A stretch of DNA of 64,000 nucleotides from positions 10,277 to 74,276 of the forward strand of contig PMUI01000049.1 in NCBI GenBank assembly GCA_003166955.1, in the 5' to 3' direction. Made by a program: the position numbers and the translations under genes. The notes beneath the pieces are model-generated. The model was not told where the DNA came from and made no database searches. It was given only the letters and a program-made list of their open reading frames with translations. Shown here piece after piece: positions 3,071 to 56,867 of this stretch; positions within the stretch are counted from its first letter, which is position 1, and each line of letters starts with the position of its first letter. The stretch comes from Acidobacterium sp. GTDB taxonomy: Bacteria; Acidobacteriota; Terriglobia; Terriglobales; Acidobacteriaceae.

Positions 3071-4342
3071 GTGAACAGGCTTTCCCCTTCTCGATGGACG
3101 CGACTTCTCTTGAAGTCCATCGGCCCAGGCGTAATCACCGGCGCCGCTGACGATGACCCGTCCGGTATCGCGACCTACTCGGTGGCGGGCGCGCAGTTTG
3201 GAACCAGGCTGCTGTGGACCGCGGCCCTGACCTGGCCTCTGATGGCCGCGGTTCAGATGATGTGCGCGCGCATTGGCAAGGTGACGGGCCGGGGCCTGGC
3301 CGGGAACCTGAAGGCGCGATTTCCTGTGTGGCTGCTCTACATTTTTGTCTTTGCCCTGCTCGTGGCCAACACCATCAACATTGCCGCGGACTTAGCTGGC
3401 ATGGCGGATGCGGCTGCGATGCTCTCCGGCATCGATTCCCGCATATTTGTGGTGGTCTTCGCTCTCCTGATCTCATGGGCTACGGTTCGGCTTCGCTATT
3501 CGCAGATCGCGAACTCGCTCAAGTGGCTGGTTCTGGTTCTCCTTGCCTACCCCGTCACGGCGTTTGTTGTTGGAGTTGATTGGCGTCAGGTGGCGCACTC
3601 TACCTTTGTACCCTCCATGCCGCACAGTGGAGCCGAATGGTCGATGCTGGTAGCGATTCTCGGTACAACGATCAGCCCGTATCTTTTCTTCTGGCAGGCC
3701 AGTGAAGAGGTGGAAGAAGAGAAGGCCTCTGGCCAAAGTACGCTTGCGATGAGGAAAGGAGCCTCAGTGCAGGAACTGGAGATGCGAAACATCGATGTAG
3801 GCGTGGGTTCGTTCTTCTCGAACCTGGTGATGTTCTTCATTATCCTGACCACCGGGATCACCCTCAACCGGCATGGCCTGACTCACATCGAGACGACCCG
3901 CGAGGCGGCCGAAGCCCTTCGTCCCCTTGCCGGCAAGTTCGCCGCAACCCTGTTTACTGTGGGTATTGTCGGTGTCGGGTTCCTTGCCATCCCAACCCTC
4001 GCCGGATCATCGGCCTACGCCTTCGCGGAGACCCTCGGCTGGCGCCAGGGACTGAACCGGGAACTGAAACAGGCGCGCTGGTTCTACGGCCTCATCCTGC
4101 TCTCCACCGCTGTTGGAGTCGGTCTTAACTTTGCGGGCTTAAATCCGGTGAAGGCGCTCTACTGGACCGCGGTTATCAATGGATTACTTGCCCCGTTCCT
4201 CCTGGTCGCGATCCTGGTCGTAGCATCGGACAGGAAATTGATGCAGGGTCAGCCCAGCTCGCGATTGGGCTTCGCCATCGTGACAGTAACCGCAATTGCG
4301 ATGTTTGCCGCCGGTGTAGCCATGTTTGTCTTTCCAGGCTGA
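3071..4342 (+). CDS. Nramp-family metal transporter, divergent metal site
   Basis: A 423-residue polytopic membrane protein, normal length for Nramp (SLC11/MntH) transporters, with about 11 hydrophobic helices. The N-terminal GPGVITGAADDDPSGIATYS is the TM1 signature region, but the canonical DPGN metal-binding motif reads D29-P30-S31-G32, so the Asn ligand is missing. In TM6 the canonical methionine ligand of AxxMPHN is replaced: the stretch is GTTISPYLFFW (Ser202 before Pro203, Tyr204 for His). It therefore belongs to an Nramp-like subgroup whose substrate cannot be assumed to be Mn2+ or Fe2+. The start is a GTG with no clear ribosome-binding site. A charged EEVEEEK loop follows TM6. Confidence 0.9.
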   Translation: MNRLSPSRWTRLLLKSIGPGVITGAADDDPSGIATYSVAGAQFGTRLLWTAALTWPLMAAVQMMCARIGKVTGRGLAGNLKARFPVWLLYIFVFALLVANTINIAADLAGMADAAAMLSGIDSRIFVVVFALLISWATVRLRYSQIANSLKWLVLVLLAYPVTAFVVGVDWRQVAHSTFVPSMPHSGAEWSMLVAILGTTISPYLFFWQASEEVEEEKASGQSTLAMRKGASVQELEMRNIDVGVGSFFSNLVMFFIILTTGITLNRHGLTHIETTREAAEALRPLAGKFAATLFTVGIVGVGFLAIPTLAGSSAYAFAETLGWRQGLNRELKQARWFYGLILLSTAVGVGLNFAGLNPVKALYWTAVINGLLAPFLLVAILVVASDRKLMQGQPSSRLGFAIVTVTAIAMFAAGVAMFVFPG

Positions 4343-6553: not shown

Positions 6554-9500
6554 ATGAAACGGCTGGTCCTTGTTCTTGCTCTGCTTGGTTCCACTCCCGC
6601 GTGGGGCGCCATCGCTTTTGTCTCCGCGTCGCACACCATTTGCAGTCAGGCCACAGCTTCTTCGGGTACGGCCTGTACGCTGACCGCGCCGACGACGGCG
6701 GGGAATCTGGTGATTGCAGGTCTGACGTGGAGCAGTTCAAACTCGATCAACGACGTGGTGGGAAACGTCACCAGTTCTTACTTTTTCCCCTACGCACAGG
6801 TTTGCAATGGCTCGGGTTCGTGCTCGGCGATCCTCATCTGTCGAGACTGCTCGGCGCTGACCACGGTGACACCTCATTTTAACGGTCAGACAAACTACAA
6901 CCTGAGCGTTGAGGAATACTCCGGTGTGACGGCAATTGGAGTCACGCGAACCGCAACTGGAAGCAGCACCGCTCCTGGTGTTGCTATCACTGCAGGGGAC
7001 GCGAACGATTGGCTGGTAGCGGTGACGGCGAGCCCGGCGAGTGCGGGTGTTCCCACAGCGGGGACTGGCAATCTGCGCGATGCGGGTCGTACGGGGAGCA
7101 GCGGGGTCGCTAGCGCGGTCTGCGACAATACGACGGCGACGGCGGGAAGCCTTTCCTGTGCTGCGACCGCCGCGTCGGGGGCGTGGTCCGCCGCAGGGGT
7201 GGAGTTGCGCACGACCTACGCGACGACGTACATCTGGCCCGATTGCGACTTGACGCATCCCTGCGTGATTCACGAGAAGGACACGGTTTCGCTGGGAACC
7301 GGCACGGACACACTGACAGGCCCATTCAAGATCACAGTGCCTCCCACTCTGTCCGGGAACCTGATGAAGCTGACCATCACGCATCCGGGCGCGGCAACGA
7401 TCAACTCGGTTAGCGATGACCAATCGAACACGTGGACGACGGGCGCCACTGCGAGGGACAGCAGCAATGGCGAGATTACAGAGGTCCGATATGTGTGCGG
7501 CGCGGCCACCGGAACGTCGGTCATTTCTGTTGCTTACAGCAGCGCCATTGTCGATGGCGATATCGCGCAGTTCAGTTATGACGAGGTGAGCGGCATTGCG
7601 CCATCTTCCTGCGGTGATGGGAGCAGCGGTTCCGGCGGAGGTGTGGGCGTTCTGAATCCCGGCCCGATTGCGACAACATCCGGCGGCGATATGATTTTTA
7701 CCTTCGGAATCGCCGCTGACGGTTGGGCGGAGAACGGAAATCAGGCGGGCGTGGCCCAGCCTGACGATAATTCCGCGAAGATCGCGGAGAACGATTTCGA
7801 TCAGTTCATGTCGATGGTGCAGGTGCAGGGGTCGGCGGGAACGGCCAATCCCACGATGTACGCCAACGCGCTGGATGTGAACAACACGGGCCTGCACTGG
7901 AACATTGTGTCGCAGGCGTTCAGGGCGTCGAGCGGGGCAGGAACGCAGCCCAGCGGAATCCATGTTGTAACGGACCAGCATTTTCTCAACTGGAACGGAT
8001 TGGGATGGAGTCCACTGCCGTCGAACGGCAATGTCGTCGTATTCTCCACGTCGAATCCCAGCGCGGGATGGGGAATGGCGAATCTGGCTGATAACTATGG
8101 GGCCACCTACATCAGAACGCCTTACACGGATGCGAACGTGGATCCGCAGCAGTTCTCGGCGTGCCTTGGCTCGAACGTCTCAGCCCGCGACCGCATCTTT
8201 AGCTACACCGCGGATAGAGTTCAGACGCACGTTGAGATTTACACGATTGCCGGGGCAAAGAACGCCACCGGAACGGGCTGCGTGGGCACGACGGTCAATC
8301 ACTATGTAAGCACCCAGGGATCGATTAAGAACGATAACATCGTGAGCGACGTGGTCATTAAACCGACGATTAATGGGGGAGCGAACAGTGTAATTTTCGC
8401 AACGTCCTATGTGGGGACTGGACCTCCGACCGGGATGTGCATTTCCGGAGGGGTGACGCCGCCCACGTGTACGGGACAATCGGCGGGCGTGATTTTCAAT
8501 TCGATCTACGCGACAGGAATGACGGATCAATCGAGCTGGAGTACGGGCGACCCATACGCGTTCTTCTACACTAACTCGACCAGTTCGAGGTCGATGGATT
8601 ACCTGATGGCGAACGGGACGTCTGGAACGGCTCTGTACGGTGCTGCCATTGAGATTTTTGGGGCAGGCACTACGGCGGGGCCGGTAATGCTAACGCCGAC
8701 CATCACGGTGACGCCGTCCGCGCCGAGCATCACGAGGGTGCAGCCGCTTTCGGTGACCGTGGCGGTGAAGGGTGGAAGCGGTAGCCCAACGCCCACCGGA
8801 ACGGTGACGCTGAGCGGCGGCGGGTACGCCTCCGCGGCGACAACGCTGAGCAGCGGCAACGCCACGATCGGCATCCCGGCAGGTTCTCTGGCGATCGCGT
8901 CGGATACGCTGACCGTCAGCTACACGCCCGACTCCGGAAGCTCCTCGACCTACAACACTGCCACAGGCACTTCTTCGGTGACGGTCACCCAGGCGACGCC
9001 AACGGTGTCGTCATGGCCCACGGCCAGCGCCATCAGCTTCGGGCAAACGCTGGCCTCGTCGACGCTGACGGGAGGCGCGGCTTCGGTGCCGGGCAGTTTC
9101 GCCTGGACCACGCCCAGCACGGCCCTCGGCATGGGGGCATCGTCGCAGAGCGTGACCTTCACGCCCACTGACGCGACCGACTACACCAACGTGACCGGAC
9201 AAGTCAGCGTCACCGTGGCCAATGCGGCGAAGCCGACGGTGTCGGTCTGGCCCATAGCCAGCGCCATCACCTATCGGCAAACATTGGCTTCGTCGACTCT
9301 GACGGGCGGCACGGCTTCCGTGCCGGGCACGTTCGTCTGGACCACGCCGAGCGCGGTTCCCGGCGCGGGTACGCCTGCGGAGAGCGTGACCTTCACGCCC
9401 ACGGACGCGACCGACTACACCACCGTGACCGGACAAGTGAGCGTCACCGTGAACAAGGCGACGCCGACGGTGTCAGCATGGCCCATCGCCGCCGCCATCA

Positions 9501-10957
9501 GCTACGCGCAAACGCTGGCCTCGTCGACGCTGACGGGAGGTGTGGGTTCGGTGCCCGGCACCTTCGTATGGACCACGCCCACCACGGCTCCCGGCACGGG
9601 GACGTCGTCCCAAAGCGTGATCTTCACGCCCACGGACGCGACCGACTACAACGCCGTGACGGGACAAGTAAGCGTCAGCGTGAACCAGGCGACGCCGGCG
9701 GTGTTGGCTCGGCCCATAGCCACCGCCATCAGCTACGCGCAAACGCTGGCCTCGTCGACCCTGACGGGAGGCGTGGCTTCGGTGCCCGGCACATTCGCAT
9801 GGGCCACGCCCGCCACGGCTCCCGGCACGGGGACATCGGCCCAGAGCGTGACCTTCACGCCCACGGACGTGGTCGACTACGCCACCGTGACAGCACAAGT
9901 GAGCGTCACCGTGAACAAGGCGATGCCGGCGGTGTTGGCTCGGCCCATCGCCAGCGCCATTGCCTACGCGCAGACACTGGCCTCGTCGACTTTGACGGGA
10001 GGGGTGGCTTCGGTGCCCGGCACGTTCGCCTGGACCACGCCCACCGCGGTTCCCGGCGCCGGCACACCCTCTGAAAGCGTGACCTTCACGCCCACGGACG
10101 CGACCGACTACAACCTCGTGACGCAGACGGTGCAGCTCACCGTGACGAAGGCCATCTTAGCCGTGACGGCGACGAACGCTTCGGTGCCCTACAACCAGGC
10201 GATTCCGAATCTCACCTACACCATCGCGGGCTATGTGAATGGGGATCCCTCTTCTGTGGTCAGTGGTGCGCCGTTGGAGAGCACGACAGCCACAAAGGGT
10301 TCGCTTGTGGGAACTTATCCGATCACTATCGTCCAGGGCATGCTCGCGGCTATCAATTACAACTTCCTGTTCCAGAACGGCACGTTGACCGTCACCTCAC
10401 TGGGAGCAACGGCCACGCCAGTCTTCACACCAGCTGCGGGCACATACACCTCGACCCAGACGGTGACCATCTGGGATGCGACGGCAGGTGCGGCCATCTA
10501 CTACACAACCGACGGAACTCCGCCGACGATTTCCTCTGCGAAGTACACGGGCGGAGTCGCGGTGCCGGCAACGGAAACCATCGAGGCCATCGGCGTAGCT
10601 CCCGGCTATTCGCAGAGCGCCCCTGCCTCGGCGCTGTACACCATCAATATTCCCGTTGCCACGGCGCCTTCGGTCGCCACTATGGCAGTAACGAATCTGG
10701 GCAGATCCAGCGCAACTCTGAATGGGACCGTGACCGCGAACAATGCAACCACGCAGTACTGGTTCGCCTACGGAACCAGCAATACCGCTTTGACCGGCAC
10801 AACAATAAGGGCCGGCGCATTGACAGGAACATCGGCCACGCCGGTGAACGCAACTCTGACTGGCCTGAGGCCGTTTACCACTTACTACTTTCGGGTCTTC
10901 GCGTCGAATGCGGTGGGCACAACCTCGGGCTCGGTCCTGAGCTTTACTACGAGATAG
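6554..10957 (+). CDS. Giant secreted Ig-like/MBG/FN3 repeat protein (1467 aa)
   Basis: The N-terminal signal peptide (residues 1-19, ending WGA) marks it as exported. Residues 20-720 are a beta-rich, Ser/Thr/Gly-rich region with two laminin-G-like stretches. An Ig-like domain follows (about 715-815), then five tandem copies of a 77-78-residue repeat with the core ASSTLTGG, FTPTDATDY and VSVTV (about residues 815-1195). After these come an MBG-type domain (VPYNQAIPNLTYTIAGYVNG), a chitobiase C-terminal-like domain (IYYTTDGTPPT) and a terminal fibronectin type III domain (TYYFRVFASNAVGT). No sortase or autotransporter signal is visible. A role in adhesion or biofilm is inferred from the architecture only. 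The ribosome-binding site is GAGGAG. Confidence 0.9.
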   Translation: MKRLVLVLALLGSTPAWGAIAFVSASHTICSQATASSGTACTLTAPTTAGNLVIAGLTWSSSNSINDVVGNVTSSYFFPYAQVCNGSGSCSAILICRDCSALTTVTPHFNGQTNYNLSVEEYSGVTAIGVTRTATGSSTAPGVAITAGDANDWLVAVTASPASAGVPTAGTGNLRDAGRTGSSGVASAVCDNTTATAGSLSCAATAASGAWSAAGVELRTTYATTYIWPDCDLTHPCVIHEKDTVSLGTGTDTLTGPFKITVPPTLSGNLMKLTITHPGAATINSVSDDQSNTWTTGATARDSSNGEITEVRYVCGAATGTSVISVAYSSAIVDGDIAQFSYDEVSGIAPSSCGDGSSGSGGGVGVLNPGPIATTSGGDMIFTFGIAADGWAENGNQAGVAQPDDNSAKIAENDFDQFMSMVQVQGSAGTANPTMYANALDVNNTGLHWNIVSQAFRASSGAGTQPSGIHVVTDQHFLNWNGLGWSPLPSNGNVVVFSTSNPSAGWGMANLADNYGATYIRTPYTDANVDPQQFSACLGSNVSARDRIFSYTADRVQTHVEIYTIAGAKNATGTGCVGTTVNHYVSTQGSIKNDNIVSDVVIKPTINGGANSVIFATSYVGTGPPTGMCISGGVTPPTCTGQSAGVIFNSIYATGMTDQSSWSTGDPYAFFYTNSTSSRSMDYLMANGTSGTALYGAAIEIFGAGTTAGPVMLTPTITVTPSAPSITRVQPLSVTVAVKGGSGSPTPTGTVTLSGGGYASAATTLSSGNATIGIPAGSLAIASDTLTVSYTPDSGSSSTYNTATGTSSVTVTQATPTVSSWPTASAISFGQTLASSTLTGGAASVPGSFAWTTPSTALGMGASSQSVTFTPTDATDYTNVTGQVSVTVANAAKPTVSVWPIASAITYRQTLASSTLTGGTASVPGTFVWTTPSAVPGAGTPAESVTFTPTDATDYTTVTGQVSVTVNKATPTVSAWPIAAAISYAQTLASSTLTGGVGSVPGTFVWTTPTTAPGTGTSSQSVIFTPTDATDYNAVTGQVSVSVNQATPAVLARPIATAISYAQTLASSTLTGGVASVPGTFAWATPATAPGTGTSAQSVTFTPTDVVDYATVTAQVSVTVNKAMPAVLARPIASAIAYAQTLASSTLTGGVASVPGTFAWTTPTAVPGAGTPSESVTFTPTDATDYNLVTQTVQLTVTKAILAVTATNASVPYNQAIPNLTYTIAGYVNGDPSSVVSGAPLESTTATKGSLVGTYPITIVQGMLAAINYNFLFQNGTLTVTSLGATATPVFTPAAGTYTSTQTVTIWDATAGAAIYYTTDGTPPTISSAKYTGGVAVPATETIEAIGVAPGYSQSAPASALYTINIPVATAPSVATMAVTNLGRSSATLNGTVTANNATTQYWFAYGTSNTALTGTTIRAGALTGTSATPVNATLTGLRPFTTYYFRVFASNAVGTTSGSVLSFTTR
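8993..10150 (+). repeat. Five in-frame tandem repeats of 231-234 bp
   Basis: Copies begin near 8996, 9230, 9461, 9692 and 9923, measured from the recurring CGACGGTG/CGGCGGTG position (9002, 9236, 9467, 9698 and 9929). Spacing is 234, then three times 231 bp. The copies are very similar at DNA level, including synonymous positions, which points to recent duplication or gene conversion. They encode the 77-78-residue Ig-like repeats of the giant secreted protein. Confidence 0.9.
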
Positions 10958-23983: not shown

Positions 23984-24768
<785 letters not shown>

Positions 24769-24772
<4 letters not shown>

Positions 24773-25539
24773 CCGCGCTTCTCCGGCTCGCGTGGAGCGT
24801 TGCCCTGAAAGCTGGCGAGTTTGATCTCAATCATGCGGGGATTCATGCCTTCGATGATGGAGATGACGCCTTCGAGGGCCATTTCCTTGAGGCGCTGATC
24901 TTCGCGGGCGCGCTGCCTCAGCTTACCGGCAGCGGGAAGAAAGAAGAGATTGGCTGCGCCCACGCCGTAGATGGTGGCGACGAAGGCGACGGCGATGCCA
25001 CGTCCCACCTGATCCATGTGGTCGAGATGCTGCATCACCTGGATGAGGCCGATGACGGCGCCGATGATGCCGATGGTGGGGGAGAATCCGCCGGCGGATT
25101 CGAAAACGGCGGGAATGCGGGCCTCGTTTTCGCTGATGTTGTCGATCTGGACCTCCATGATGCGGCGCAGCTCGGAGGGCTCGGTGCCGTCGACGGCCAG
25201 CATGAGAGCCTGACGGAGGAAGGGATCGGCAACCATGGGCAGATCCTGATCGAGGGAGACGATGCCTTTGCGGCGTGCTTTGTTGGCGAAGCCGACGATC
25301 TCGCGCAGCAGGGCTTCGCCGCCGCCCTTGCGATGGAAGAAGACGCGCCAGAGATGGACGACGGCCGAGAGCACGGTGGGGAGGGGGAACTGCAGCATAA
25401 CCGCGCCCAGGGTGCCCCCGAAGACGATCATGGCCGCGGTGGGTTGCATCACCTGACCGATGTGCCCGCCCTCGAAGATCAGGCCGGCGAGAATGCCGGC
25501 GAGCGCGAGGAGAATGCCGCCGAGGCTGCCCGCGTCCAT
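24769..25539 (-). CDS. motA: Flagellar motor stator protein MotA
   Basis: A 256-residue inner-membrane protein of the MotA/ExbB family. The start MDAGSLGGILLALAGILAG is chosen; the frame is open further upstream only because it overlaps flbD. Four transmembrane helices are arranged as two pairs around a cytoplasmic loop of about 110 residues. The later pair includes GGFSPTIGIIGAVIGLIQV, containing the conserved Pro near the proton path. The gene begins 4 nt after the flbD stop and overlaps motB, forming flbD-motA-motB. Confidence 0.95.
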
Positions 25540-25543
25540 CAGG

Positions 25544-25834
25544 TTAGTCCTCGGAAAGAGCGGAGTCGACGGGCTGAGGCGAGAGCCGCTCCGGGGAGCG
25601 AGCCGATGCGGGCAGGGGCGTCCATGCGAGCGACTGCAGGTGTCCGGCGGCCTCCGCAAAGACGCGACCGCGGTACGCGATGGTGCGATTGACGACGTCT
25701 TCGCAGGTTTCGAGTACGACGATTTTTTCGCCGTTGATCAGCGTGAGCATGGTGTCCGGCGAGGCTTCGGCGTACTTGATCAGGTCGCTGTTCACGACCA
25801 GAGGATTCCCATTGAGCCGCGTGAGGTGAATCAT
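25544..25834 (-). CDS. flbD: Flagellar protein FlbD
   Basis: A 96-residue protein. The N-terminal 60 residues match the short FlbD family: MIHLTRLNGNPLVVNSDLI, then YAEASPDTMLTLINGEKIVV and VVNRTIAYRG. The C-terminal 35 residues are an extra Pro/Ser-rich tail. FlbD proteins sit at the head of flagellar motor operons in several phyla; their exact role is unclear. The start is the ATG at 25834 with GGAG about 9 nt upstream; the in-frame upstream extension has no support. It is the first gene of flbD-motA-motB and is divergent from the flagellin gene. Confidence 0.9.
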   Translation of the reverse strand: MIHLTRLNGNPLVVNSDLIKYAEASPDTMLTLINGEKIVVLETCEDVVNRTIAYRGRVFAEAAGHLQSLAWTPLPASARSPERLSPQPVDSALSED

Positions 25835-25983: not shown

Positions 25984-26010
25984 TAATGACGATGGTTTGG
26001 GGGCCGATGA
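25984..26010 (+). promoter_or_regulatory. Sigma-28 (FliA)-type promoter before flagellin
   Basis: TAAT, a 15-nt spacer, then GCCGATGA: one mismatch in each half to the FliA consensus TAAA-N15-GCCGATAA with exact spacing. It lies 94 nt before the flagellin ATG and points toward it, fitting late-class flagellar expression. Confidence 0.6.
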
Positions 26011-26103: not shown

Positions 26104-29100
26104 ATGCCACTGGGTGTCCTGAACAACATCTCAGCAGTCTATGCGGAAAACAACCTGAACCAGACGCAGTCGGGTCTGCAAAAAGTTTTGACGGAACTGT
26201 CTTCGGGTTCGAAGATCAACTCCGGCGCGGACGATCCGGCCGGTCTGTCGATTGCGAACGGTTTGGCGGCCAATTCCGCGGCCCTTTCGCAGTCCTCCAG
26301 CAACGCCAGTGAGGGCGCGGGCTTCCTGCAGGTGGCAGACGGCGCATTGTCGCAGGTAACGAGTTTGCTGACCAGCGCCGTCACGCTGGCTACGGAAGCG
26401 GGCGGCGGAACATTGTCCGGCTCGCAGCTGGGCGCGGCCAACCAGGAGTACCAGGATATTCTGACGCAGATCGGGACGATCGGCAGCACGACAGAATATA
26501 ACGGGATCACGGTTTTCAGCGCCGACCAGACCACCAGCGCGCTGGGATGGGGCGCGAATGCAGTGGGATCGGCCAGTTCGGCCACCGCAACATCGGGGGC
26601 GATTGCCTCTCAGGCGATCACGGCGAGCGCAGCAGCGGCACCGGTGCAGGCCACAACCTACGGGGCCGCGACGGCCATGAGCTGGACGCTGAACGGAACC
26701 GCCAGCATTACCGCCAGCACGTCGACCATCACGTCCTCGGTCATCCCCAATGGCGCCCAGCTTTCCGGCACCGTTGCCTTTACGCCTCTGACCAGCGGGG
26801 GCACCGCCAATCCGATCAGCATCAACCTGGCCAATGTCACCGGCAGCTCGCTGGGGACGCAGGCAACCAGCCTGGCGAATCTCATCAACGCGCAGGCCGG
26901 GAACGGCAACCCCGACTACGCGGTGTCTGTGGTGAACGGCAACCAACTCCAGATCGGCCTCGGCACCAGCGCCAACGCCGACCACATCACGGGATTCAAT
27001 GCTGCCCCGGCGACGAACGTCGTCACCAGCGGCGCGGCAGCCGCGCAGACCGGCTTCACCATGACCGTGACAGATGGTGGAACGCTGGGCGGTTCGCTCA
27101 CCGTGAACCCCGCCGTGCTCGTAGCCGGAACACAGACCGGTGTCAACTTCAACACCAGCAGCTCCACACAGATCGTGGCGTCGAACATCCTTGCCGGGCA
27201 AACCCTGGGCGGCAGCATCACCCTCGGCGGCACCACTTTGACGCCCGGCACGCCCTCGCCGATCAACTTCACCAACAGCTCCGGCACGTATACGGCGACC
27301 ATCCCGGTCGGCGATATACTCGCGGGCGGCTTCACCATCACTCCGACCGGCGGCTCCGACTCGCCGGTCGATATTGACCTGACTGGCCTGACCACTTCAG
27401 GCACTTCCCTGGTGGACGGGATCAACAGTCAACTGGGCAGCGCCGCGAGCGACTACGTGGTTTCCTATTCGGGCAACACCTTGAGCATCGGCATTACAGC
27501 CAGTGCCAGCGGAACCAAGCCCACCTCGATCGTCGTTGCCGCCGATACCAGTGGTGGCGCCCACGGCGCCGGCACCCAGACCACGGCGGCGGTGCCAGGG
27601 ACAGCCACACCCAAGACAATCGATCTGACTAACGTGACGACTGCGAACCTGCAGAGCACACTGAACGCCGACCTGGCGGGGTCGGACTATGCCGCCACCT
27701 ACGACACCACAGCCCACACGTTAACCTTCAGCATCTCGGGTGGTCAGGGCGCCTCCGACCACGTCAATGCCATTAACTTGAACGGCGTCACTCCGACCGT
27801 GACCAAACAGACCGCGGCCAGCACGTCGGCGGGAACCCAGGGCAATATCAGCCTGACGAATGTGACCACCGCGAATCTGGCGAGTGTGGTGAACACAGCG
27901 CTGAATGGAGTCAAGACAACCACAGCGGACTACTCCGTCAATTACAGCGGCGGCGTCCTGACGGTGGGCCTCACGGCGTACGGCACCGGCACGGACAATA
28001 TTGGCAGCCTTGCCCTGACCGGCTCACCGACGGAGACCTCACCGACGGCAGCCAGTATCCAGTTCACCGACGGTGCGCAGTTGAGCGGCCAGTTCAGCAT
28101 TACGCCGACCATCAGCGGAGCGGCGGGGAGCATCACCACTGTCAACCTGAACGGCCACAGCACATCGGATCTGGTCAGCACGGTCAACGCAGCGCTGGGC
28201 GCCTCGGCGAGCAAATACACTGTGGCTTACAACGCCAGCAGCGGCGTCGGCACGCTGAGCATCAGTGTCAACGCAGCCGGCCTCGCGGCCAACTACGACT
28301 CGGTCGCCATCGCAAACGGCACCTCCACGAATGCGATGGGGCAATCCGGAGTGGCCATTACCAACGTCAACGCCGCGAACACGGTGATGGGCAACTTCAC
28401 GGTTACGTCCGCGGGCGCCGGGACGGCGAAAAACGTCGACCTGGACGGCGTGAGCAATGCGAACCTGCTCAGCACGGTGCAGCAGGCACTGGGGACGAAC
28501 TATACCGTTTCCTACAACACAACAGCCGCCACTCAGGCCCTGGGCCTGGGCAATCTGTCCATCGGCATCTCGGCGGCGGGCGCGGCAGCCGGCATCACGT
28601 CGTTCACGGTGGCCGAGGCTTCCTCGCAGGCCGCATCGCAGGAAACTCCGATCACGGGCGGCGTGAGCGTCTACACCAGTGACGGCACCAGCGCGGGCAG
28701 CCAGAACTACAACGTGACGGTGGGCGCTCTGACCGATGGCAGTGTTGGAACCTCGAGCGCTGCCAGTGCGACCTCTCTGATGGGCACGCAGGTCACCACG
28801 ACTGTGGGCGGGGTTACAGGCACGGGCGGGATGCTGTCGGGCGCCGGGGCCGGCACCAGCCTGACGGGTACCAACCTGAACAACCAGGCGAATGCCGAAG
28901 CGGCTCTGCAAACCATTGACAACGCCATCAACGCCGTCGCTTACCAGCGCGGTCAGGTGGGCGCCAACATCAACACGCTGACCGCGGCATCGAACATCGC
29001 CAGTTCGCAGATGACGAACATCACTTCTGCGCAGAACACGATCACGGCGACGGACTATGCCTCGGCCACCTCCAACATGTCGAAGTACGAGATCCTGACC

Positions 29101-29169
29101 CAGACCGGCATTTCGGCTCTGGCCCAGGCCAACAGCACGCAGCAGATGGTGACCAAGCTGCTGCAGTAA
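26104..29169 (+). CDS. fliC: Giant flagellin (1021 aa)
   Basis: The first ~140 residues are a normal flagellin D0/D1 N-terminus (GVLNNISAVYAENNLNQTQS, SSGSKINSGADDPAGLSIAN, QEYQDILTQIGTIGSTTEYN). The last ~100 are the C-terminal D1/D0 (LQTIDNAINAVAYQRGQVGA, ILTQTGISALAQANSTQQMV). Between them lies about 780 residues of Thr/Ser/Ala/Gly-rich beta structure with about six degenerate repeats of the form I-x-L-x-x-V-T-x-x-N-L-x-S-x-x-N-x-x-L, YxVxYN, LxIxI. Common flagellins are 270-500 residues, so the surface-exposed part is greatly enlarged. The ribosome-binding site is GGAGAAAAG. A sigma-28-type promoter precedes it and a terminator follows. Confidence 0.95.
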   Translation: MPLGVLNNISAVYAENNLNQTQSGLQKVLTELSSGSKINSGADDPAGLSIANGLAANSAALSQSSSNASEGAGFLQVADGALSQVTSLLTSAVTLATEAGGGTLSGSQLGAANQEYQDILTQIGTIGSTTEYNGITVFSADQTTSALGWGANAVGSASSATATSGAIASQAITASAAAAPVQATTYGAATAMSWTLNGTASITASTSTITSSVIPNGAQLSGTVAFTPLTSGGTANPISINLANVTGSSLGTQATSLANLINAQAGNGNPDYAVSVVNGNQLQIGLGTSANADHITGFNAAPATNVVTSGAAAAQTGFTMTVTDGGTLGGSLTVNPAVLVAGTQTGVNFNTSSSTQIVASNILAGQTLGGSITLGGTTLTPGTPSPINFTNSSGTYTATIPVGDILAGGFTITPTGGSDSPVDIDLTGLTTSGTSLVDGINSQLGSAASDYVVSYSGNTLSIGITASASGTKPTSIVVAADTSGGAHGAGTQTTAAVPGTATPKTIDLTNVTTANLQSTLNADLAGSDYAATYDTTAHTLTFSISGGQGASDHVNAINLNGVTPTVTKQTAASTSAGTQGNISLTNVTTANLASVVNTALNGVKTTTADYSVNYSGGVLTVGLTAYGTGTDNIGSLALTGSPTETSPTAASIQFTDGAQLSGQFSITPTISGAAGSITTVNLNGHSTSDLVSTVNAALGASASKYTVAYNASSGVGTLSISVNAAGLAANYDSVAIANGTSTNAMGQSGVAITNVNAANTVMGNFTVTSAGAGTAKNVDLDGVSNANLLSTVQQALGTNYTVSYNTTAATQALGLGNLSIGISAAGAAAGITSFTVAEASSQAASQETPITGGVSVYTSDGTSAGSQNYNVTVGALTDGSVGTSSAASATSLMGTQVTTTVGGVTGTGGMLSGAGAGTSLTGTNLNNQANAEAALQTIDNAINAVAYQRGQVGANINTLTAASNIASSQMTNITSAQNTITATDYASATSNMSKYEILTQTGISALAQANSTQQMVTKLLQ

Positions 29170-29361: not shown

Positions 29362-30765
29362 ATGGGCAACGTCGGTATCTCATTCGGTTCCCCGACCAGC
29401 GGCCAGGGCTTCGATGTATCGACCACGGTCAGCGCGATCGTGGCGAATCTGCAGGCAGTGGAGACGCCGTGGAAGAACCAGCTCACCACGCTCCAGTCCG
29501 AGGACACGGCGCTGACAAGCATCGGAACGGATCTGAGCTCGCTGTCCACAGCGCTGACTTCGCTGAACGATTTTGAGGGCGTATTTGCGGGAAAGGAAGG
29601 CTCGAGCTCCGATACGTCGGTGGTCGCGCTGACCAACGCAACGTCGGCAGCCGTGGCCGGCAGTCATACCGTCGAGGTGGGTCAGCTGGCGCAGACCTAC
29701 TCCTATGCCACCGGCGATTTGGGCGCCACCGATACCCTCAGCGGCAGCCTGACGATTAACAATCAGAAGATCACGATCTCCGACGGCACGGCGACCGACA
29801 GCAGCGGCAACAAGATACTGGCCAATAACACGCTGGCGACGCTCGAATCGTATATCAACAACGGCGATTACGGGGTGCAGGCCAACGTGGTCACGGACTC
29901 ATCGGGATCGCGGCTCTCGCTGTTGAGCGACACCAGCGGGGGCGCAGGGGCTGTCACGATCGACGCCAGCAGCTTCACCGATTCGACAACCGGCAAGACA
30001 ATCTCCATCCCGCAGGCGCAGCTGGGACAGGATGCGCAATTTTCGGTCGATGGAACGTCGATGACCAGCTCCACCAACACGGTCACGACGGCGATTCCGG
30101 GCGTGACGATGCAGTTGCTGGATGTGGGTGGGGATACTCCGATACAGGTGGAGATCACGAACAACAACAGCAACGTTGAATCCGCAATGACGACGTTCGT
30201 GAACGCCTACAACACAGTGGTAAAGGATCTGAGTACGCAGGAAGGCAATACGTCGTCCGGAACTGCCGAGCCTCTGTACGGCAATTCTTCGATTGCTATG
30301 CTCCAGGAACAACTGCAGCAGGCCATGACCTCCACACAGTCTTCCGGCGCCATCACTTCGCTGTCGCAGTTAGGAGTCACGACCAACAAGGACGGTACGC
30401 TCACGCTCAGCACGAGCACGCTGGACAGTGTTCTCAACAGCAATTATCAGGACGCGATGAATTTCTTCCAGGCGGACAGCAGCTCTACGTCGTTTGGAGT
30501 GAATCTGACCAAGGTTCTGAGCAACGTCGGCAACAGCGGACCGGGCGGCGTGATTTACCTGGCGCTGCAGCAGGACTCGTCGCAGGAGACGGACCTGAAC
30601 AAGAACATCACCAACGAGAACACGGCGATCAGCACACAGCAAACGCAGCTGACCACCGAGCTCAACGAAGCGAATTACACCCTGCAGATGATCCCGGAGC
30701 AACTGCAATCGGTGAACGAGCTGTATAGCGCGATTACCGGATACAACGAGAACCCCGGCGGATAA
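29362..30765 (+). CDS. fliD: Flagellar filament cap / hook-associated protein 2 FliD
   Basis: A 467-residue protein. The ATG at 29362 is chosen because MGNVGISFGSPTSGQGFDVS is the usual FliD N-terminus; the frame is open upstream but gives an unlikely extension. The FliD_N region (FDVSTTVSAIVANLQAVETP) and a middle domain with flagellin-IN-like repeats are present, as is the C-terminal FliD_C coiled coil (TTFVNAYNTVVKDLSTQ and NTAISTQQTQLTTELNEANY). It caps the growing filament and guides folding of flagellin. It is followed 22 nt later by fliS. Confidence 0.94.
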   Translation: MGNVGISFGSPTSGQGFDVSTTVSAIVANLQAVETPWKNQLTTLQSEDTALTSIGTDLSSLSTALTSLNDFEGVFAGKEGSSSDTSVVALTNATSAAVAGSHTVEVGQLAQTYSYATGDLGATDTLSGSLTINNQKITISDGTATDSSGNKILANNTLATLESYINNGDYGVQANVVTDSSGSRLSLLSDTSGGAGAVTIDASSFTDSTTGKTISIPQAQLGQDAQFSVDGTSMTSSTNTVTTAIPGVTMQLLDVGGDTPIQVEITNNNSNVESAMTTFVNAYNTVVKDLSTQEGNTSSGTAEPLYGNSSIAMLQEQLQQAMTSTQSSGAITSLSQLGVTTNKDGTLTLSTSTLDSVLNSNYQDAMNFFQADSSSTSFGVNLTKVLSNVGNSGPGGVIYLALQQDSSQETDLNKNITNENTAISTQQTQLTTELNEANYTLQMIPEQLQSVNELYSAITGYNENPGG

Positions 30766-30787
30766 CGGGGAGACAGTGCGGAGGAAC

Positions 30788-31249
30788 ATGAATTACCAGC
30801 AGCAGGCGGTAGCCGGCATGAATCCGATGGAGCTGATTGTCGCTCTCTATGACGGAATGGTTCGCTTCCTCTACCAGGCGATTGCGGCGGTTGAGAGCCG
30901 CAATCAGCAGGACCGCCGCGTCGCAGTGGCGCGGGTGCTGGAAATCCTGATGCACCTGCAGTCGCGGCTGCGGCCGGATGTAGGAGGGAATTCCGCGAAG
31001 GCTCTCAGCGAGTTTTATGCCGCGATCTTCGCGCTGTGTCTGGAGGGATCGAGGCTGGAGTCGGCGGATCGCTTCAGGGAAGCCATCGGCTGCATACGCG
31101 ATGTGCGCGAAGCATGGAGTGTGGCAGCCCACGATCCGGAAGTGCTGCGTTTGCTGGGAGAGGAAGACGGCGGGTCGGGGCATATGGTGATGACGCGGGC
31201 GACCAGCATGACAGCCGCGGAACCGGCGAGTTCCAGCTGGACGGCGTAG
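30788..31249 (+). CDS. fliS: Flagellin export chaperone FliS
   Basis: A 153-residue four-helix protein. The ATG at 30788 has GGAGG 5-6 nt upstream; an in-frame GTG 12 nt earlier is less likely. FliS features are MNPMELIVALYDGMVRFLYQ, then helices with AIAAVESRNQQDRRVAVARV and LSEFYAAIFALCLEGSRL. The C-terminal ~30 residues (GSGHMVMTRATSM...) extend past the usual end. It binds the flagellin C-terminus before export; here its client is an unusually large flagellin. It converges with the ABC transporter gene with only 6 nt between the stop codons. Confidence 0.92.
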   Translation: MNYQQQAVAGMNPMELIVALYDGMVRFLYQAIAAVESRNQQDRRVAVARVLEILMHLQSRLRPDVGGNSAKALSEFYAAIFALCLEGSRLESADRFREAIGCIRDVREAWSVAAHDPEVLRLLGEEDGGSGHMVMTRATSMTAAEPASSSWTA

Positions 31250-52368: not shown

Positions 52369-52736
52369 GACTCATCCCGAAAAGGCCGCCCGTCGCAGCC
52401 CTCCCAGGGCGTTCCCTTGTCCGGCGCCTAGCCACTGCTGCTTTTCCAGTGCGGTTTTCTGTGGAAATCCAAAACCTGCGGTAACCCCCGCTGCCTCTGT
52501 TGTTTCCCGATCTGACCCACCTGTGGAGGGGTAACGCAAAAGTACCACGGAGAAATTACCAAAGTAATTTTTGATGGTGACTTGCCGTGCTATGTTGGCA
52601 CCATATTGGTAACGGGGACTGACTTACAGGCAGCTCGGTGGCCGATCCGATTGAGTCAGGAGCTTTCCCCGCTGCCCTCTGCGTCTTCCGCTCGCCCGCC
52701 TGCGGAACCCGGCAGAGAGATTACGACGAGGATTCT
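52369..52736 (+). other. Upstream region of the NHL/Ig-like giant gene (368 nt)
   Basis: No gene was recognised. The AT-richer part 52530-52610 contains a perfect dyad (see 52553-52570) and several GGTAAC repeats (52479, 52530, 52608). The promoter of the downstream giant secreted protein is expected here. Confidence 0.45.
52553..52570. promoter_or_regulatory. Perfect inverted repeat, candidate operator
   Basis: AAATTAC-CAAA-GTAATTT is a perfect 7-bp dyad in an otherwise GC-rich region. Its right edge abuts TTTTTGATGG, and TATGTT at 52591-52596 could be a -10 element, so a bound regulator would overlap the -35 region of the giant secreted protein gene. Confidence 0.5.
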
Positions 52737-55700
52737 ATGACGGCTCTGTTTCGTTTCTGCCTTGCTTCCAGATGCAGCCTCAAGTCGCTATTTGCCGCTC
52801 TGATGACCACTGCGGCGCTGGCGCTGACCAGCGTGCCTGCCGTGCGTGCCCAGACGGTATTCCCGGCGACAGCGGTGGGGACGGCAACGCCTGCATCCCA
52901 GACCGTCACGGTCAGCCTGCAGGCGGCCGGCACCGTTGCCAAAGTCGAAGTGCTGACCCTGGGAGCGTCGAATCTGGACTTCACTGAATCCGGATCGGAC
53001 AACTGCAGCGGGATCAGTTCCGGCAGCTGCCAGGTGACCGTGGCCTTTGCGCCCAAATGCCCGGGGCTGCGCCAGGGCGCTGTCGTGCTGCTGGACGCAG
53101 CCAACAACACACTGGGCACCGCTTTCGTGGCTGGCATTGGGCAGGGTTCGCTGGCAGTCATGGTTCCGGGCGCGGTCAGCACCGTGGCCGGACAAGTCGG
53201 CGAGTGGACCGTGGTGAATGACGGCGGTCCGGCAACGCAGGCGGATCTGTACCTCCCCTCCGGCGTCTTCGTGGATGGCGCGGGCAATCTCTTCATCGCG
53301 GACTCGCACCACAACCGAGTGCGCGAAGTCTTCGCGGCCGGTGCAAATGCGGGCACGATTGCCACCGTGGCCGGCGATGGCGCAGCAGGTTATGACGGCA
53401 CCGCCACGGTGGCGACCTCGACGTCGTTGAATCAGCCGAGTGGCATAGCCATCGATGGTGCGGGCAACGTCTACATCGCGGATACGAACAACAACGTGAT
53501 CCGCAAAGTGGACCTGACCACCGGCGCGATCAGCACTGCGGCCGGCACCGGCGCGCCGGGATACACGGGCGATGGCGGCGCGGCAACCGCAGCGACGCTG
53601 AACTCGCCCGAGGGCATCGCGGTCGATGCGGCGGGCGATCTCTTCATCGCCGATACCAATAATGATGCGGTCCGGGAAGTGGTCGCAGCCACCGGAAAAA
53701 TCTCCACCATCGCAGGCGACGGAACGGGCGTACCGGGCTACGCGGGCGACGGCGCGCTGGCGATCTACGCCAGGCTCAATGCGCCTTACGGCGTAGCGCT
53801 CGATTCCACAGGGAATCTGTACATCGCCGATTCGGGCAATAACCGCGTGCGGGTGGTGAACGCAGCCGGCAACATCAGCACCTCGGCCGGCGATGGCGCC
53901 GCTGGCTACAAAGGCGATGGCGGCCTCGCGACCTCCGCTGAGTTGTATTCGCCGCTCGGCGTAGCGTGCGATCCAGCGGGCAATGTATACATCGCCGACG
54001 CGCGCAATTACGTCGTGCGCAAAGTGAATGCCGTCTCGAGAAATATCACGACCATCGCCGGCAGCAATGCGGACACCAACTACGTCGATGGCAAGTCGGA
54101 CTTCAGCTACGGCAACGGCGAGAACGGCGATGCGTTTAGCGGCGGCGGCATTGCGACCGGTGCGGGAATCTACGCGCCGTATGGTGTTGCGGTCGATCAA
54201 GCCGGAAATCTTGTGATCGCGGAGTATTTCGACCACATCGTTCGGGAGGTTGCGGCGAACTCGGCAACGTTATTCTTCACGCCGGAACTCTGGCAGAACC
54301 AGGTCAGCTCGCCGCAGAACCAGGTCATTGAAAACGACGGCAACGCGACGCTGACCTTTTCCGCAGTCACGCCGGATGCGAACGCCGCCGTTGCTTCGAC
54401 CGGCAGCACCTGCACTACGACCAGCAGCGTCACGGTCGATGAGTCCTGCGCGGTGGCCGCGGAGTTTGCGCCCACCAACACTGCCAATCCGCTGCCAAAC
54501 CCGCTCGTGGGCAACGTCAATCTGACCGCCAATTCTGCGGACTCGCCCCTCGATATTTCCATCGTCGGCGAGGCGCTTGGCCTGAACGGCGCGATCGTGA
54601 CGCTCAGTTCGAGCCAGAATCCTTCGGCCTATGGGCAGTCGGTCTCGCTGAACGTCACGGTGAAGCAGGATCCGAACTCGACGCAGGGCACGCCGACCGG
54701 GACGGTGACTTTCTCTGACACCTTCCAGGGAACGACGAGCCCGCTGGGGACCGCACAGACGCTGAACTCCAGCGGCAATGTGAGCCTGCAGCTTACTTCG
54801 CTGGCGGTGGGTACGCATGTCATCACCGCGAACTACAGCGGCGATACGTATTACAGCTCGTCAGCTTCCAACCCGCTTTCGCAGGTCGTACAAGAACAGG
54901 TAACCGTGACGGTTGCCAATACTGGCGGAGGCAATCCGTCGGCCTGGGGCACCACTGTGACCTTCACCGCAACCGTCAGCGTTTCAGGCGGAATTCCGGT
55001 TTCCGGCTCGGTCTCCTTCTACAACGGCGCGGCTTACCTGGGCAGCGGAACCCTGAACGGCAGCACGGCAACCTACTCGACGGCGAACCTGCCGGTGGGC
55101 AGCAACCCGATCACCGCAACCTTCACCGATTCCAACAACGTCAGCTCGACCTCCTCGCCGCTCAATCAGGTTGTGCAACAGACAACCGCGACGGCGATCA
55201 CCTCCAGCGCCAACCCCACCATCCACGGGACGCCGGTCACATTCACGGCCGTCGTCACGGCGGTGGGTACCGTTGTGCCGACCGGGACGGTAGCGTTCTA
55301 CGACGGCACTCTGCAGATCGGGACGGGCACGTTGGCTCCAGCTGGTACCACGAGCGCCGTAGCGACCTTCCAGACCTCGACTCTGGCTGCGGGAACGCAT
55401 TCGATTACTGCCTCCTATGGAGGCGACGCGAATGACTTCACCAGCACCTCCGCGGCGATTTCGCAGACCGTCAACATCGCCTCTTCGGCCACGGCTGTGG
55501 CAGCGAGCGCGAACCCGGCCATCGCCGGCAAGCCTCTCACGCTGACCGCGACCGTAACCACCAACGGCGGGACCGCCGCGGGCACCGTGAATTTCTACAA
55601 CGGAACGACGCTGCTGGGTACGGGCACGCTGAACGGAGCAGGGGCGGCGACCTTCACCTCCTCTACACTGCCGGCCGGTAACTATTCCGTCACGGCCAAC

Positions 55701-56867
55701 TATGTGGGCGACGCCAACGACACAGGCAGCACCTCGGCGACACTCGCGCTCACCGTCGTCCAGGCCACCACCACCATCAGCATCGTCACCAGCAACCAGA
55801 CCGTGCAGGTCACCAGCGCGGTCACGTTCACCGCGACCGTGACCGGCAACGGTGGAGTTCCAACTGGCAACGTCACATTTATGGATGGCGCCAACACGCT
55901 CGGCTCCGTAGCCGTCAACGCCGGCGGAGTGGCCAGCTACACCACTTCCTCGCTGGCGGTTGGGACGCACAACATCACGGCGGTGTACGGTGGCGACGCC
56001 AATGACGGCGGCAGCACATCGGCAGGCCTCACTGAAACCGTGACAGCCTACGCCACCCAGACATCGCTGGTGGCTTCCGCGACCAGCCTGAACACCGACC
56101 AGGAACTCACCCTGCTGACAACCACCACGTCGTCGACCGGCAACGCGGTGACCGGCACCGTCACCTGGATGAACGGTTCGACGACGCTGGGCTCGGCGAC
56201 GATAGGCGTCAACGGCACGGCGACCCTGAATCTGAATCCAGCCGCGGGATCGTACAGCATCACCGCGCACTACAGCGGTGACGCCCTCAACGCGCCGTCC
56301 GTCTCCAACGTGGTGACGGTCACCGTCTCGCTGGCCACGGAATTCACGATCGCCCTGAACCCGACTTCGCTCAGCATTCCGACCTCGCAGTCGGCGCAGT
56401 TGACCATCAACCTCGGATCGGAGGACGGGTTCGCCGACAAGATCGCGCTCGGCTGCGGCTCGCTGCCGTATTCGGTCAGCTGCAACTTCGCCACCAACGA
56501 TGTCACGCTGAACAAGGACGGCACAACCTCCGTCACCCTGACCGTCGATACGAACTCACCGCTGGCTTCCGGCTCGCAAGCGCGGAATGAGGATCCATTC
56601 AGCGGTAGCGGCATGCTCGCAGCGTGCGTCTTCCCAGGCGCGGCCCTCCTGGGGTTCGCATTCTGGCGCTTCCGCAAAAACGCAATGGCCCTGCGCGCGC
56701 TCGCGGTCATCGCGATGCTCGCAGGCACCACCCTCCTGATGACCGGCTGCGGCGGCTTCTCTCTGAACAGCGCCAAGGCGGGCAATTATGTGATCCAGGT
56801 GACGGCCACCGGCGAACAAACCGGCGTAACCCATGTCGCCAACCTCACATTAACGGTGACCCAGTGA
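52737..56867 (+). CDS. Giant secreted NHL-repeat/Ig-like repeat protein (1376 aa)
   Basis: The ATG at 52737 follows GAGG. A signal peptide ends near VRAQ. After an N-terminal Ig-like segment come about six NHL repeats (GVFVDGAGNLFIADSHHNRV, GIAIDGAGNVYIADTNNNVI, GVALDSTGNLYIADSGNNRV), giving a six-bladed propeller at about residues 140-510. At least seven Ig-like (Big_3_5-type) repeats follow, each with a VTFTATV...PTGTVTFYDG...YGGDAND pattern. Near the C-terminus two hydrophobic segments (AACVFPGAALLGFAFWRFRK and ALRALAVIAMLAGTTLLMTG) are followed by CGG and a final beta segment ending LTLTVTQ. The product is probably surface-exposed and anchored; its binding partner is unknown. Confidence 0.9.
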   Translation: MTALFRFCLASRCSLKSLFAALMTTAALALTSVPAVRAQTVFPATAVGTATPASQTVTVSLQAAGTVAKVEVLTLGASNLDFTESGSDNCSGISSGSCQVTVAFAPKCPGLRQGAVVLLDAANNTLGTAFVAGIGQGSLAVMVPGAVSTVAGQVGEWTVVNDGGPATQADLYLPSGVFVDGAGNLFIADSHHNRVREVFAAGANAGTIATVAGDGAAGYDGTATVATSTSLNQPSGIAIDGAGNVYIADTNNNVIRKVDLTTGAISTAAGTGAPGYTGDGGAATAATLNSPEGIAVDAAGDLFIADTNNDAVREVVAATGKISTIAGDGTGVPGYAGDGALAIYARLNAPYGVALDSTGNLYIADSGNNRVRVVNAAGNISTSAGDGAAGYKGDGGLATSAELYSPLGVACDPAGNVYIADARNYVVRKVNAVSRNITTIAGSNADTNYVDGKSDFSYGNGENGDAFSGGGIATGAGIYAPYGVAVDQAGNLVIAEYFDHIVREVAANSATLFFTPELWQNQVSSPQNQVIENDGNATLTFSAVTPDANAAVASTGSTCTTTSSVTVDESCAVAAEFAPTNTANPLPNPLVGNVNLTANSADSPLDISIVGEALGLNGAIVTLSSSQNPSAYGQSVSLNVTVKQDPNSTQGTPTGTVTFSDTFQGTTSPLGTAQTLNSSGNVSLQLTSLAVGTHVITANYSGDTYYSSSASNPLSQVVQEQVTVTVANTGGGNPSAWGTTVTFTATVSVSGGIPVSGSVSFYNGAAYLGSGTLNGSTATYSTANLPVGSNPITATFTDSNNVSSTSSPLNQVVQQTTATAITSSANPTIHGTPVTFTAVVTAVGTVVPTGTVAFYDGTLQIGTGTLAPAGTTSAVATFQTSTLAAGTHSITASYGGDANDFTSTSAAISQTVNIASSATAVAASANPAIAGKPLTLTATVTTNGGTAAGTVNFYNGTTLLGTGTLNGAGAATFTSSTLPAGNYSVTANYVGDANDTGSTSATLALTVVQATTTISIVTSNQTVQVTSAVTFTATVTGNGGVPTGNVTFMDGANTLGSVAVNAGGVASYTTSSLAVGTHNITAVYGGDANDGGSTSAGLTETVTAYATQTSLVASATSLNTDQELTLLTTTTSSTGNAVTGTVTWMNGSTTLGSATIGVNGTATLNLNPAAGSYSITAHYSGDALNAPSVSNVVTVTVSLATEFTIALNPTSLSIPTSQSAQLTINLGSEDGFADKIALGCGSLPYSVSCNFATNDVTLNKDGTTSVTLTVDTNSPLASGSQARNEDPFSGSGMLAACVFPGAALLGFAFWRFRKNAMALRALAVIAMLAGTTLLMTGCGGFSLNSAKAGNYVIQVTATGEQTGVTHVANLTLTVTQ

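Follow-up and report, generated by a model that had tools for sequence, protein, structure and literature searches.

The window, a 64,000-nucleotide stretch of an Acidobacteriaceae genome (G000; 5.4 Mb in 142 contigs), carries the gene of a giant flagellin of 1021 residues, in which conserved ends enclose an insert of 791 residues (aa 144-934) with six degenerate repeat units. We consider it likely that this is a filament flagellin whose middle was enlarged to six units by old internal duplication, and that inserts were exchanged between its locus and that of a second flagellin gene. The named records related to this genome are Acidobacteriaceae MAGs, several of them from palsa sites.

Both the normal flagellin ends and the length given in the initial annotation were confirmed. 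Pfam places Flagellin_N and Flagellin_C at opposite ends of the protein, and fliD, fliS and motAB adjoin the gene (Table 1), so both the product and its surroundings are those of a flagellin. With more than 1000 residues and an enlarged middle, the protein has the length of the giant flagellins, and its six units correspond to the internal duplication that is a trait of some of them. The insert matched no Pfam family even at E <= 10, and an NCBIfam search found no domain in it.

The large size might be an artefact of assembly or frame, or the mark of a decaying gene, as the second giant flagellin gene of G000 (contig C55, L033) carries a frameshift in a run of eight C (~3991-4000) and the rpoB of this genome is also broken between frames. 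We regard this as hardly credible: the window copy is open across 1021 codons and has a normal C-terminus, and the intact homologues of the same length class in G002 (1033 and 1035 aa) contradict it. Because rpoB is split in the same genome, the frameshift at the C run is itself likely to be an assembly error, although slippage-based switching there is conceivable.

Two other long proteins are encoded in the window. One of 1409 residues (52638-56867, + strand) is likewise repeat-built and combines six Big_3_5 Ig-like domains with NHL repeats. The other, of 1467 residues (6554-10957, + strand), has MBG, chitobiase C-terminal and fn3-like domains near the C-terminus, and its first 1200 residues gave no Pfam match.

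Table 1. Features of the giant flagellin gene, its product and its neighbours; positions refer to the window.
Feature	Residues	Positions	Strand	Basis or remark
MotB stator		23984..24772	-	Pfam
MotA stator		24769..25659	-	Pfam
FlbD		25544..25834	-	Pfam
sigma-28-like promoter, TAAT-N15-GCCGATGA		25984..26010	+	93 bases upstream of ATG
Giant flagellin FliC, locus a		26104..29169	+	ORF of 1021 aa
N-terminal flagellin region (D0-D1), conserved	6-143	26119..26532	+	Pfam Flagellin_N, E 7e-29
Repeat R1 core	238-302	26815..27009	+	Profile E 3e-18; one helix, strands either side
Beta-only half units between R1 and R2	~313-421	27040..27366	+	Alignment; strands only
Repeat R2 core, confined to 6-unit genes	422-480	27367..27543	+	Profile E 4e-15
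Repeat R3 core, confined to 6-unit genes	504-561	27613..27786	+	Profile E 2e-15
Repeat R4 core	580-640	27841..28023	+	Profile E 1e-18; clusters with unit 2 of 4-unit genes
Repeat R5 whole unit, modelled alone		28027-28326	+	pLDDT 86.6
Repeat R5 core	about 678-739	28135..28317	+	Iterated profile
Repeat R6 core	776-838	28429..28617	+	Profile E 5e-18
C-terminal flagellin region (D1-D0), conserved	935-1020	28906..29163	+	Pfam Flagellin_C, E 1.5e-16
FliD filament cap		29362..30765	+	Pfam FliD_N, FliD_C
FliS flagellin chaperone		30776..31249	+	Pfam

Repeat units of the insert

The units of the insert have a core of 60-65 residues and a complete length of ~100 residues. Internal repeats are present in the middle region and are significant against shuffled sequences: the Smith-Waterman z of the 15 repeat pairs against shuffled copies ranged from 2.1 to 11.2, and 8 tile pairs in a scan of the protein exceeded the maximum of 30 shuffles. 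An iterated profile found all six units, each at E 4e-15 or better, in agreement with the about six degenerate repeats of 60-100 residues originally described. Between R1 and R2 lie the half units, in which LGGS-type motifs recur; by alignment, 4-unit relatives lack the central part of this region. At the DNA level only short stretches of the repeat copies are alike, with about 68-73% identity, and no recent tandem duplication was found, Tandem Repeats Finder calling nothing, so the duplications are old.

In the full-length AlphaFold model, computed from a 27-row alignment, each repeat has one helix with flanking strands and is predicted to form one alpha/beta domain. The ~780 residues of repetitive beta structure first proposed therefore hold as repeats, but the units are mixed rather than purely beta. 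Local confidence was mostly high in R1 and R5 (pLDDT 80-95), and because the overall pTM was low (0.32), the relative placement of the domains is not fixed by this model. When the R5 unit was modelled alone from an alignment of 37 units, confidence was good (pLDDT 86.6, pTM 0.79), and the fold followed the order beta-beta-beta-alpha-beta-beta-(short helix)-beta. The closest solved folds to this unit were the outer domains of Pseudomonas aeruginosa flagellin (FliC; probability 0.97, E 0.023) and of FliD (Escherichia coli D1-D3; probability about 0.9, E 0.05), both with weak scores. A search of the PDB by sequence with the repeat profile gave nothing significant, P. aeruginosa flagellin included. 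For the full chain, the best PDB match was the flagellin of Geovibrio thiophilus (792 residues; Foldseek E 4e-9).

The likeness of the repeats to the flagellin/hook IN motif noted in the initial annotation stands in part. The helix of Flagellin_IN (PF07196), with its L..xIN-type pattern, is in register with the helix of our unit, and the nearest folds are those of flagellin and FliD. On the other hand, Flagellin_IN matched neither the protein nor any unit at E <= 10 in Pfam, and a single hhalign comparison of the unit profile gave a probability of 7% (E 0.005). The IN-like segments reported for FliD are seen in the orthologues of G002, G003 and G004, which pass the Flagellin_IN cut-off, as do several other proteins of related genomes. 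Kinship of the unit with the IN motif is thus plausible, with sequence register and fold likeness being only suggestive.

Unit number within and outside the genus

To place the insert among its relatives we used a genus sample of 12 genomes (G000-G011), all with flagellins, and a family sample of 250 genomes. Within the genus the unit occurs 0, 1, 4 or 6 times, and flagellins range from 270 to 1035 residues. The unit is missing from the flagellins of G003 (298 aa), G009 (270 aa) and G004 (418 aa), and is present once in G001 and G008 (434 aa each) and in G007, whose gene runs off the contig end. In G005, G006 and G010, each of the two flagellin genes has four units (768-787 aa). In G000 and G002, each has six (1021-1035 aa); for the second G000 gene, two frames were joined across the frameshift, for counting only. 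Unit counts thus agree between the two flagellin genes of every 4- or 6-unit genome. G011 is broken by assembly gaps; it also has a separate flagellin of 272 residues (L042) next to a FliD-like gene of its own, which points to a second set of flagellar genes.

Growth of the insert by internal duplication, as the initial annotation had supposed, is well supported by the significance of the repeats, by one predicted folded domain per repeat and by the varying copy number in congeners. In a tree of repeats, genes of the 4- and 6-unit types come together in a separate clade for each of R1, R5 and R6, and R4 clusters with the second unit of the 4-unit type; R2 and R3 occur only in 6-unit genes. The two six-unit species fell apart in the fliD-motA-fliS tree, and rpoB varied too little and was too broken up to order species. 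Since neither marker fixes the order of 4- and 6-unit species, the series may reflect either gain from four to six units or loss.

The unit was not found outside its genus among the 250 family genomes, in which 79 genera were sampled. We also considered whether large repeat-built flagellins as such are special to this genus, and rejected it: flagellins of 922, 661 and 638 residues in other Acidobacteriaceae genera (G150, G222 and G183; L133, L135 and L137) have internal repeats of their own, none matching our unit. The repeats of the 922-residue protein are much more alike, so they are probably recent.

Two flagellin loci with mosaic genes

The two flagellin genes of the 4- and 6-unit genomes lie at distinct loci. 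Locus a, that of the window, adjoins motAB, fliD and fliS; locus b has none of them. Upstream regions, too, set the loci apart. The sigma-28-like promoter at locus a has 10 of 12 consensus bases, which 2 of 200 shuffles matched; its -10 element is kept across the genus, where the locus a motif reads TAA(A/T/C)-N15/16-GCCGATGA. At locus b of G000, G002, G005 and G006 (L033, L034, L036 and L038), GCCGATGA is kept, the -35 element TAAA is lost, and in its place GGACTTGAGGGTGTCC or a close sequence precedes GCCGATGA.

The ends and the insert of these genes gave different genealogies. In DNA identity, the ends of G000 and G005 at locus a are 90% (N) and 92% (C) alike, versus 83-84% for the a and b paralogues within G000. 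Their inserts show the reverse: at locus a, G000 and G005 share 57-62% identity, while a and b within G000 share 68-83% (79-83% over R1, R5 and R6), leaving aside a segment present only in 6-unit genes. In the end-region tree a six-unit clade was rejected (p-AU 4e-6) and locus a as a single clade was not (p-AU 0.08); strictly, even the ends do not keep locus a together, as the two genes of G010 pair with each other. In the insert tree the six-unit genes form a clade at 100/100 and a locus-a clade was rejected (p-AU 9e-4). Because ends follow the locus and inserts follow the genome, the genes are mosaic, and inserts have been exchanged or homogenised. Within a genome, third positions are about as similar in the insert as in the ends, so the exchange or conversion was not recent.

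The simplest reading of these sequence comparisons is that the mosaic arose by exchange between the loci, presumably through gene conversion; alternatively, one insert type may have been imported and then spread to both loci. A broader version of import, in which the insert did not grow within the genus but was acquired by horizontal transfer as a ready-made cassette like enterobacterial H-antigen regions, the 4- and 6-unit forms being two types brought in from outside, seems unlikely to us. It would fit the two insert clades at 100/100 and the divergence between 4- and 6-unit inserts, which is far above that of the ends, third positions included, and a variable region replaced through transfer has been described in E. 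coli and Salmonella (PMC7018530). However, the unit occurs in no other genus among the 79 sampled, a single-copy version is present in sister species, and four repeat positions are common to both types.

Returning to duplication with exchange between loci, we tentatively suggest that repeated insert exchange might hold the unit number equal in the two separately regulated flagellins of a genome, allowing both to build one filament with an even outer layer. If this is true, filament thickness would step by whole domains, up or down, among species of one genus.

A predicted outer layer and known systems

The D0-D1 ends of flagellins form the filament core. The conserved ends of the giant flagellin would build the ordinary core of the filament of this Acidobacteriaceae species, and its insert would take the place of D2/D3. 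We infer that a ~100-residue outer-domain unit was long ago duplicated to six copies, enlarging the surface-exposed middle, and that the resulting chain of six small domains points outward and may thicken, sheath or stiffen the filament. Exchange or homogenisation of inserts between the loci, with ends staying locus-specific, would give both flagellins matched outer layers, and the two may co-assemble. Flagellin architecture and the Oceanospirillales precedent point to such an outer layer of extra domains, and by analogy its most likely use would be a thicker or sheathed filament for movement in peat or soil.

It is improbable that the enlarged region serves mainly for binding or enzymatic display, as an adhesin or protease, rather than as a structural layer. 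The surface position would suit display, and a xylanase D module profile matched at E 0.3, which is not significant; yet the nearest folds are flagellar outer domains, and Pfam and NCBIfam searches gave no enzyme or binding family and no known adhesin signature. In contrast to flagellinolysin, whose variable region holds a metallopeptidase domain with HExxH, the protein has no peptidase family in these databases and no HExxH motif in its translation, and the enzymatic display proposed in the initial annotation finds no support.

Giant repeat-built flagellins and concerted flagellin evolution are both already known (PMC6248924; PMC6053082). Giant flagellins are longer than 1000 aa, and filaments thicker than about 24 nm are expected of them; Thomson et al. 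reported filaments at least 30 nm wide and a history of stepwise internal duplication (PMC6248924). Those of the Oceanospirillales Bermanella marisrubri and Oleibacter marinus resemble the window flagellin in length, in a middle grown by internal duplication and in stepwise growth between relatives, but have two DE units and a DX insert, whereas ours, from Acidobacteriota, has six ~100-residue units, and its genus shows 0, 1, 4 or 6 copies. As for the DE region, the unit has no sequence match to P. aeruginosa flagellin, although the single-unit fold is weakly like its FliC. The 2018 paper makes no mention of Acidobacteria (PMC6248924), and our search of a paper library found no description of such flagellins in them.

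In the sheathed or screw-like filaments of E. coli H6/H7, Achromobacter and Sinorhizobium, extra outer domains layer the core, as we predict for ours, and these filaments are linked to viscous habitats and soil (PMC8931119). Such layers influence waveform and motility, and a role in viscous habitats was suggested (PMC8931119); the contacts have been solved for those filaments, whereas ours is known from sequence and models. The Geovibrio thiophilus flagellin (PDB 9au6), also large and with a solved filament, is only 14% identical to ours with a large rmsd, and the likeness may be limited to the core. The fla genes of Alteromonadales evolve in concert, with paralogues homogenised within genomes (PMC6053082), but in the genus studied here the insert alone goes with the genome, the ends being largely locus-specific.

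Why some bacteria enlarge their flagellin is an open question, to which this genus brings minimal (270 aa), one-, four- and six-unit forms. Together with its matched paralogue pairs, these offer a natural series for testing per-domain effects on filament diameter, stiffness and swimming in viscous peat. In Escherichia and Salmonella, no intermediates of the variable region are seen, as a study of dual-level diversity notes (PMC7018530), and the value of the present genus lies mainly in its unusually clear series, in which the growth of a protein can be traced inside one genus.
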